From Apiotrichum sp. Y4204 (lineage: Eukaryota > Basidiomycota > Tremellomycetes > Trichosporonales > Trichosporonaceae): a stretch of 64,000 nt of DNA. Positions 32,944 through 34,506 of the stretch are shown here, piece by piece. How positions within the stretch are numbered: position 1 is the first letter of the stretch; every line of letters begins with the position of its first letter. A program made the translations under genes and the position numbers. The notes beneath the pieces are model-generated. The model had not been told where the DNA came from. It saw only the letters and a program-made list of their open reading frames with translations, and searched no databases. The stretch lies in assembly GCA_025531455.1 (NCBI GenBank), contig JAMYHL010000013.1, forward strand, positions 62,001 through 126,000, written 5' to 3'.

Positions 32944-34506
32944 TCAATCCTTCTTCCGGTGCTCAGGCTTGTGATCCACTTCGTGATCAACGTGCACGAA
33001 ACAGCGGTCGACGTCAGGCAACGCCTCAATTTGATCCTGGAGGTCCTGCGAGATATCGTGCGCTTTCCACAGCGGCATCTCAGGATCACTGATGTGAGTC
33101 GTTTTCTTCGTCCTTCGGCAATCGTCAACTCACAGCACAATGTCCACCTCCACGACATATTTGGGGCCGGAATGATACACACGAACGGTGTCGACAAGCT
33201 TGATGTCGTCCGAGAAAGTCATGGCCTTGTACGTCACCAAAGAGACATACTCTGACGGGGCAGTAATTCCCGCCAGGAAGGTAAACTGTTCTGCTTGTTA
33301 GCAACAAAGAGATGGAGAGCATATTGTTCCCAAAAGCCGTCGGTCCACCCACCATAAACAGTGCGGCACCATAGGAGGATGATAACGCAAGCCAGAACCG
33401 TGGCACCCGTGGGGTCAATCCACCAGCGCAACTTGGCACCTCCAGCGTTGGTGAGGATACTGAATGCGTTCCTGGAGATCAGATGCTGGTCAATCGTAAG
33501 ATAACGTACGTGAAGAGATCGTTACGGTGATCCTCCCACAGCACCTGAACCTGCGAAGAGGCGCTGCGAATGGCCATGCAGTAGAGGAAGAGTATAAACT
33601 TCACCGCCCATGCCGCGCACACGGATGCAAGAGGGATGACGTGCAACTCCTTGGTCTCACCTCCCTTGTGAGTGACAATTTCCTGGATGGCAAAGACCTA
33701 TTGTCAGCAGAGCGATGAGGACGGAACACGAACAATGAGAATAAAGTTGACGCCACCCATGATGAAGCCGTAGACGATGTTGCCACTGTTGTCAGTCTGC
33801 TCGTTCCTGTGACAGGCACTAACACTGGCGTTAGTTTCGCTGGAGAATTGACTGCGCTCACTAGTCTCAAAACGGCTACCGCGGACTGGCCATTTGCGCT
33901 CCTCGGCATTCTTCGACGCACGATGAGCCAACCACAAGATCAGGTTTGCGAGAGGGTCGACTCTCTGTTAGCACTGCCGAAAAGACCACGACTCACAAAC
34001 TGTAGGGGAAAAAAAGAAGGTCACAGGTAAGTAGCCATTTACAGACACCATGCCAGGAGAGAAAACTTGCCTGCATCAACACAGCTGGCAAAGAGCGCCA
34101 GCGACATCGAACTGATCGCCGCGTACAGTTGCAGCGCAGCCAGCGCCGTGTTGCAGACAAATGAGATATTGACCGCGAGCTTGACCTTGAGCGCCATGTC
34201 CCGCTCCTCCTGTTTCCCCTCCGCGGTGTGGACCGCAAACGGCTTGAGCAGGTTGCCGATGTGATCGTTCTGTCCCTCGTAGAAGGAAGCCAGCTTGCCG
34301 TGGGAACGTCCCCGAGAACGTATCTTGGAGATTTCAATGCTGCACTTGATCCTGTCGCGGAGAAGAAGAGGGTCGTGCTCGCCAGCCTCACGGCTCACCA
34401 CTGACTGGATGCCGACCAGCTCGATGTCATCGTCGTGGCCGCGCTCAGACACCTCGGTAGCGTGTGGTTGAAGCTCAACGGCCGTTGTCACTGCTGTCGA
34501 CGACAT
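32944..34506 (-). CDS. Cation diffusion facilitator (CDF) metal transporter with nano-exons
   Basis: Proton-coupled exporter of divalent metal, most like the Mn-type CDF/MTP group. Nine exons on the - strand: 34071-34506, 33997-33999, 33862-33960, 33824, 33734-33785, 33510-33697, 33353-33471, 33134-33290, 32944-33088, giving 399 residues with every phase closing. A cytosolic N-terminus of about 105 residues precedes TM1. TM2 carries D144-x3-D148 (VDAVFD). Then follow KWPVRGSRFETIGNIVYGF, TM5 with D253-HRN-D257, RWWIDPTGA and a cytosolic C-terminal domain with LVTYKAMTFSDD and HDISQDLQDQIE. DxxxD pairs, rather than HxxxD, point to manganese. Intron 1 is GC-AG (GCAAGT donor). The 3-nt and 1-nt exons are described separately; without splicing at 33786-33861 the frame also stays open and would insert 25 polar residues. 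Family certain; nano-exons need transcript proof. Confidence 0.9.
33824..33824 (-). other. Candidate single-nucleotide exon (T) in the CDF gene
   Basis: Between GluThr+A (ending at 33862) and T+GGC AAC ATC (starting at 33785) lie 76 nt. They read as two back-to-back canonical introns: 37 nt (GTGAGC ... ACTAACGCCAG, 33825-33861) and 38 nt (GTTAGT ... ACTGACAACAG, 33786-33823), separated by one T. Joining A+T+T gives Ile and the segment FETIGNIVYGF, as expected for the family. One 76-nt intron would break the frame; no splicing leaves a 25-residue insertion. Confidence 0.6.
33997..33999 (-). other. Candidate 3-nt exon (TTT) in the CDF gene
   Basis: Bounded by TTTCCCCTACAG and GTGAGT. Upstream is a 71-nt GC-AG intron (34000-34070); downstream is a 36-nt intron with GCTAAC branch (33961-33996). 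Including TTT gives Val-Phe and the spacing Asp-Ala-Val-Phe-Asp, the CDF TM2 DxxxD motif. Skipping it keeps frame but yields DxxD, which would break the metal site. Confidence 0.7.

Follow-up and report, generated by a model that had tools for sequence, protein, structure and literature searches.

A single T at position 33824, inside a cation diffusion facilitator (CDF) metal transporter gene of a yeast-like fungus, is very probably a real, constitutive one-nucleotide exon whose two flanking introns would be removed consecutively by intron definition (we put the probability at roughly 0.93). The gene lies in the window, that is, the whole 64,000-nucleotide stretch of DNA that was analyzed, and its exon-intron model is given in Table 1. 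The spliced protein exceeds the Pfam cut-offs for both Cation_efflux (PF01545, 66.9 bits, cut-off 26.6 bits) and ZT_dimer (PF16916, 41 bits, cut-off 26.7 bits), which places it in the CDF family. Its closest relative among the matches listed is a protein of Apiotrichum porosum (75% identity, 100% of the query covered). From residue 108 through the sites of both microexons (the one-nucleotide exon and a three-nucleotide exon upstream of it), it aligns without gaps to the solved YiiP/FieF transporters (3j1z, 5vrf). It shares with them the family, the DxxxD motif and the dimerisation domain, and only the exon structure is unusual here.

Table 1. Predicted features of the CDF transporter gene, in window coordinates and in the order of transcription
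Feature	Position	Strand	Basis
CDF transporter gene, 9 coding exons, 399 aa	32944..34506	-	gene model, Pfam, Apiotrichum porosum match
Exon 1, 436 nt	34071..34506	-	gene model
Intron 1, 71 nt, GC-AG (GCAAGT...CTACAG)	34000..34070	-	gene model
Exon 2, 3 nt (TTT), needed for the Phe of DAVFD	33997..33999	-	best parse; kept in the homeologous copy
Intron 2, 36 nt, GTGAGT...CTAACAGAGAG	33961..33996	-	gene model
Exon 3, 99 nt, 3' end ...GAG ACT A	33862..33960	-	gene model
Intron 3, 37 nt, GTGAGC...CTAACGCCAG	33825..33861	-	gene model, parse enumeration
Putative exon 4, 1 nt (coding-strand T), second base of the A-T-T codon for Ile in FETIGN	33824..33824	-	best parse in both copies
Intron 4, 38 nt, GTTAGT...CTGACAACAG	33786..33823	-	gene model, parse enumeration; branch site CTTAC in the homeologous copy
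Exon 5, 52 nt, 5' start TGGCAAC	33734..33785	-	gene model
Intron 5, 36 nt	33698..33733	-	gene model
Exon 6, 188 nt	33510..33697	-	gene model
Intron 6, 38 nt	33472..33509	-	gene model
Exon 7, 119 nt	33353..33471	-	gene model
Intron 7, 62 nt	33291..33352	-	gene model
Exon 8, 157 nt	33134..33290	-	gene model
Intron 8, 45 nt	33089..33133	-	gene model
Exon 9 with stop, 145 nt	32944..33088	-	gene model

At the level of motifs, the 76 nt from 33861 to 33786 hold two complete U2-type introns around exactly one base. An earlier note on this DNA had described this layout, with the lengths of both introns, their splice and branch motifs and the single T, and all of it was borne out on the sequence. We enumerated the readings of 225 nt around the junction that contain zero to two introns (GT or GC donor, AG acceptor, at least 28 nt each), which gave 3,330 parses and 735 distinct in-frame, stop-free products, and scored these against six relatives. 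The product of the one-nucleotide exon, containing FETIGN, had the highest mean score (195.7). The next two products both scored 182.7; in one of them T 33824 again serves as an exon, behind a first intron of 28 nt. Other middle exons, for instance one of 7 nt with a GC donor, scored at most 182.7 and were rejected. Lower scores were obtained for a single 72-nt GC-AG intron (178.7) and for full retention of the 76 nt (154.7). A poorer pair of introns (43 nt and a 32-nt GC-AG intron, with the middle T at 33818) leads to the same protein as the best parse. Judged by its motifs, the one-nucleotide exon is the sole well-formed parse that would supply the residue conserved in relatives, which agrees with the earlier claim that this T, used as an exon, yields a conserved Ile.

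Because the 76 nt both start and end with G, any contiguous excision that leaves one base produces AGT (Ser), and the Ile of FETIGN thus needs a middle exon. Contiguous excisions of 75 nt (GT-CA or TG-AG) were rejected, being non-canonical and giving Ser. We also rejected a single 76-nt intron, which, as the earlier note had said, shifts the frame; with the T skipped, a stop follows 146 nt past the junction. Among six mRNA forms that were compared, those lacking the T or retaining one intron run into early stops, which leaves three that remain in frame: the T form, full retention and the 72-nt GC-AG form. The base is needed for the frame, and the residue that it completes is conserved outside the named Tremellomycetes (Ile, otherwise Val). 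In an alignment of 120 proteins, this column holds Ile in 72 of 76 other proteins (Val in the remaining four), in 7 out of 7 short-contig relatives and in only 3 of the 37 named Tremellomycetes.

Under the reading that we prefer, the spliceosome would take each short intron as a unit, and introns 3 and 4 would leave in succession, whichever went first. Both carry a donor, a branch site and an acceptor of their own and have a size usual for the genome, so each should be definable alone. Since a single base separates the acceptor of intron 3 from the donor of intron 4, consecutive removal is the most likely course. Joining ACTA, T and TGGC would give ACT-ATT-GGC (Thr-Ile-Gly), and because skipping the T brings a frame shift and a stop, it is the T-containing mRNA that would encode the conserved transporter. 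We infer the splicing itself and the order of removal from the sequence, the second copy and the relatives rather than from observation. The earlier note had placed such an exon at the physical limit of exon definition. This appears to be the wrong frame of reference, because for introns of 36-38 nt the natural mechanism would be intron definition.

To assess how readily such an arrangement arises by chance, we made dinucleotide shuffles of the 76 nt with the GT start and AG end fixed, counting as a success any middle exon that preserved the frame (1, 4 or 7 nt). Two introns with a CTRAY branch site were found in 1 out of 100,000 shuffles, and with the looser CTNAY in 13 out of 100,000. A scan of both strands of 260,904 bases (the window and a further 196,904 bases from contigs C33 and C106) looked for pairs of complete motif-defined introns spaced 0-30 nt apart. 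A spacing of one base occurred only at the 33824 locus, in two rows that share the acceptor and the second intron and have two different first donors. No pair with a spacing of 0 or 2-11 nt between motif-defined introns was present in these 260,904 bases on either strand, and 12 rows had a spacing of 12-30 nt. A second copy of the gene lies inside the scanned DNA and was missed by the scan because its second branch site, CTTAC, falls outside CTRAC. No size class of intron is more enriched in the window than that of 35-40 nt, with 22 motif-defined introns against 3.6 expected from shuffles.

This second copy (L010, G000:C33:48088-49604) is 93% identical and sits on contig C33 of the same 48.9-Mb assembly. 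It encodes 399 aa, has introns of 37 and 38 nt at the junction with the same T between them, and retains the TTT exon. In its own parse enumeration the one-nucleotide product was again the best, scoring 198.8 with the next at 185.8. The coding sequences of the two copies differ at 47 of 1,200 sites, 36 of them third codon positions, and 34 of the 47 substitutions lie in synonymous codons. Because each copy codes for 399 aa and most of their differences fall at third codon positions, we rejected a pseudogene. In the second copy, intron 1 has 87 nt rather than 71 nt, and the alignment there reveals ~22 nt duplicated in tandem almost perfectly. Several matches of the CDF family are paired on different contigs; together with the 93%-identical copy, this pairing suggests a diploid or hybrid genome.

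The three-nucleotide exon, on which the earlier note is silent, falls inside the DAVFD motif, between a GC-AG intron and a short intron of the usual kind. Its bases are needed for Phe 147 and preserve the distance between the two aspartates: with TTT, the DxxxD spacing in transmembrane helix 2 is present (D144-AVF-D148), and without it the protein reads DAVD. DxxxD is the metal site of CDF transporters, and DAVFD aligns with DSFAD of YiiP. The parse with the TTT exon was the best of 957 (score 102.2, next 91.2), and that without TTT scored 85.2. Without the Phe, the PF01545 score of the protein is 58.9 bits.

For the relatives, we ran two protein searches and kept the best 120 of more matches in each, and all 149 distinct proteins so obtained were examined. 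By organism name, 39 of them were set as named Tremellomycete models; the other 110 comprise 8 proteins from short contigs and 102 more. Taxonomy records confirmed the class of Naganishia, Apiotrichum and Kwoniella, and the remaining named models presumably belong to the same class. Among the 149 proteins listed, the one-nucleotide junction is anomalous in 36 out of 39 named Tremellomycete models: ten read FETSDGN, and the others show FETSGN, FETIYG, FETMYG or other insertions or deletions. Three proteins are normal there, namely P0002 from Vanrija humicola, P0003 from Cutaneotrichosporon cavernicola and P0005 from Cryptococcus deuterogattii R265; their genes may or may not use a one-nucleotide exon. 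Only 5 of the 110 other listed proteins were flagged at the junction, four of them for a plain GN-to-GD change. The fifth, P0128 of the Exobasidiomycete Ceraceosorus guamensis, reads GSRITNAGN and is the only clear anomaly outside the Tremellomycetes among the proteins listed; it may be an independent annotation error. The Phe of the three-nucleotide exon is missing from 28 of 39 named Tremellomycetes versus 1 of 110 others in the same list, the latter a real F-to-S change. It is present in the remaining 11, including all four Filobasidiales models, where the three-nucleotide exon may therefore be absent or correctly annotated.

Two models of the same species illustrate the pattern. Only the two microexon sites distinguish the protein P0005 of C. 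deuterogattii R265 from P0010 of 99/473: R265 has DAVFD and FETIGN there, and 99/473 has DAVD and FETSDGN. P0005 presumably derives from the published re-annotation of R265, which was RNA-seq-guided and partly hand-curated and also used H99 and JEC21 proteins (PMC8022950), so the R265 model is not pure RNA evidence. Eight relatives on short contigs (951-4,495 nt), chosen as Tremellomycete-like by rank, read DxVFD and [TS]IGN (P0007, P0031, P0036, P0037, P0038, P0041, P0042 and P0123). One of them, P0036, shares 96.8% identity with P0005 across 310 aa. In P0007, P0031, P0037 and P0041 the frame runs uninterrupted on a contig of ~1.4-1.6 kb, which suggests that these are transcripts. P0042 and P0123 carry insertions elsewhere that resemble retained introns. 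The model of Vanrija pseudolonga has a 21-aa insertion at the junction, which reads like a single retained 63-nt intron (GTGA...CTAAC, ACAG) followed by TTGGC. There the T would already belong to the following exon, as expected for a gene that lacks intron 4.

Orthologue comparison combines DNA of the homeologous copy, which keeps the arrangement, with protein models of other species. That the models fail at the same spot suggests an oddity that is old and widely missed. Both microexons appear widespread in Tremellomycetes and, going by these protein models and by R265 versus 99/473, the one-nucleotide arrangement probably spans the class. Its age we infer in the same way. We consider it likely, though with less confidence than the exon itself, that the one-nucleotide exon, and perhaps the three-nucleotide exon too, is ancestral to Tremellomycetes (Tremellales, Trichosporonales and Filobasidiales), kept in Cryptococcus, systematically misannotated, and that intron 4 was lost in Vanrija. 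The parse, the homeologous copy and the relatives' anomalous models all support the earlier note's proposal of a one-nucleotide exon.

Other readings of the junction deserve consideration. T-containing and fully retained mRNAs might both be made and both be functional, a situation compatible with a one-nucleotide exon. Both forms are in frame, as is, among the six forms, only the 72-nt GC-AG product besides, yet no insertion matching full retention occurs in the relatives' listed models, and we regard this possibility as unlikely. A single 72-nt GC-AG intron (33857-33786), a rival absent from the earlier note, would give FETSDGN, one residue longer and with Ser-Asp in place of Ile; its cDNA would carry ACTAGTGATGGC, reading ACT-AGT-GAT-GGC. 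Although this form is free of stops and exactly FETSDGN stands in ten Tremellomycete models (149 proteins listed), its donor, GA/GCGCAG (exon/intron), is a poor GC donor by the consensus, its product scores below that of the one-nucleotide exon, and it does not account for the complete acceptor and the complete donor that lie inside it. Moreover, R265 and the 96.8%-identical P0036 have FETIGN, not FETSDGN, which makes the 72-nt intron very unlikely.

The earlier note offered the absence of splicing as its alternative, in which the 76 nt would be translated and add 25 polar residues before transmembrane helix 3. Its observation that the 76 nt are open in frame was confirmed by translation and holds for the homeologous copy too (read off the alignment), and a run of 25 stop-free codons is not rare (~0.3 by codon arithmetic). 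Retention, however, lowers the PF01545 score from 66.9 to 48.7 bits and splits the match in two, and the 25-residue insert is unlike every insertion at this site in the relatives' listed models, that of V. pseudolonga being itself intron-like. The two copies differ by two substitutions within the 76 nt, both amino-acid-changing if coding (read off the alignment), as against the largely synonymous substitutions in the coding sequence; this weakly points to a non-coding stretch. Translation of the 76 nt is accordingly highly improbable. A stwintron, in which one intron is nested in a splice element of another and two-step removal leaves no exon base, is scarcely credible, even though two tightly packed, consecutively removed fungal introns look similar in a genome and [D1,2] stwintrons have been reported from Hypoxylaceae and Xylariaceae (PMC12403724). 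Like introns 3 and 4, these are two closely packed U2 introns with consecutive removal; unlike them, they have a split donor and zero exonic bases in between. Introns 3 and 4 are each complete alone, with no internal intron in a splice element and with a base between them, and the base before intron 3 is A, which makes the [D1,2] form impossible. As no contiguous excision, simple or nested, gives Ile, a stwintron is excluded as the source of FETIGN.

One-nucleotide exons on record are few. The earlier note expected such an exon to be very rare in any organism, but plant and fungal examples were already known. The nuclear cases that we found in the literature are APC11 (PMC4674806) and VPS55 (PMC8831610) in plants and CYP621A in Fusarium (PMC12940212), which its own authors call the first in a fungal gene; mitochondrial cases have also been published. 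For APC11, Guo and Liu argued that the introns are removed consecutively, and the single-nucleotide exon was lost through intron loss in some lineages (PMC4674806). Like the CDF exon, those of APC11 and VPS55 are one base between two complete introns, overlooked by annotation and conserved over a large clade. They differ in gene, kingdom and intron sizes, the CDF introns both belonging to the short class usual for the genome. The CYP621A exon also resembles the CDF exon: it is fungal, was found by a phase mismatch in a conserved motif, supplies a middle codon base and has orthologue support. It belongs, however, to an ascomycete P450 of one genus, with G as the exon base (AG-G-GT) and an interval that measures 139 nt in F. 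graminearum, whereas the CDF exon is a T in a 76-nt interval and affects models across a class; RNA reads exist for CYP621A, and the CDF exon is read from sequence. Among the open-licence PubMed Central matches listed, which for two of the lists were 20 of 60 and 20 of 327, titles and abstract starts mentioned neither a basidiomycete one-nucleotide exon nor the CDF exon itself, which is weak evidence of absence. Within those matches, the CDF exon is apparently the first in a basidiomycete.

The CDF case would therefore add a known kind of exon in a new gene and phylum, with added interest from its apparent spread over a whole class and from the companion three-nucleotide exon. With exons of one and three nucleotides in one gene, among introns of 36-38 nt, the order and mechanism of adjacent-intron removal become testable. 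The relatives' models also indicate a systematic annotation error, Cryptococcus included: among the 149 proteins listed, the Phe that separates the metal-binding aspartates is missing from 28 of 39 named Tremellomycete transporters, and the start of transmembrane helix 3 is distorted in 36 of 39. If the ancestral reading is true, sequential intron definition would have maintained a one-base exon throughout a fungal class, in organisms with good genetics.
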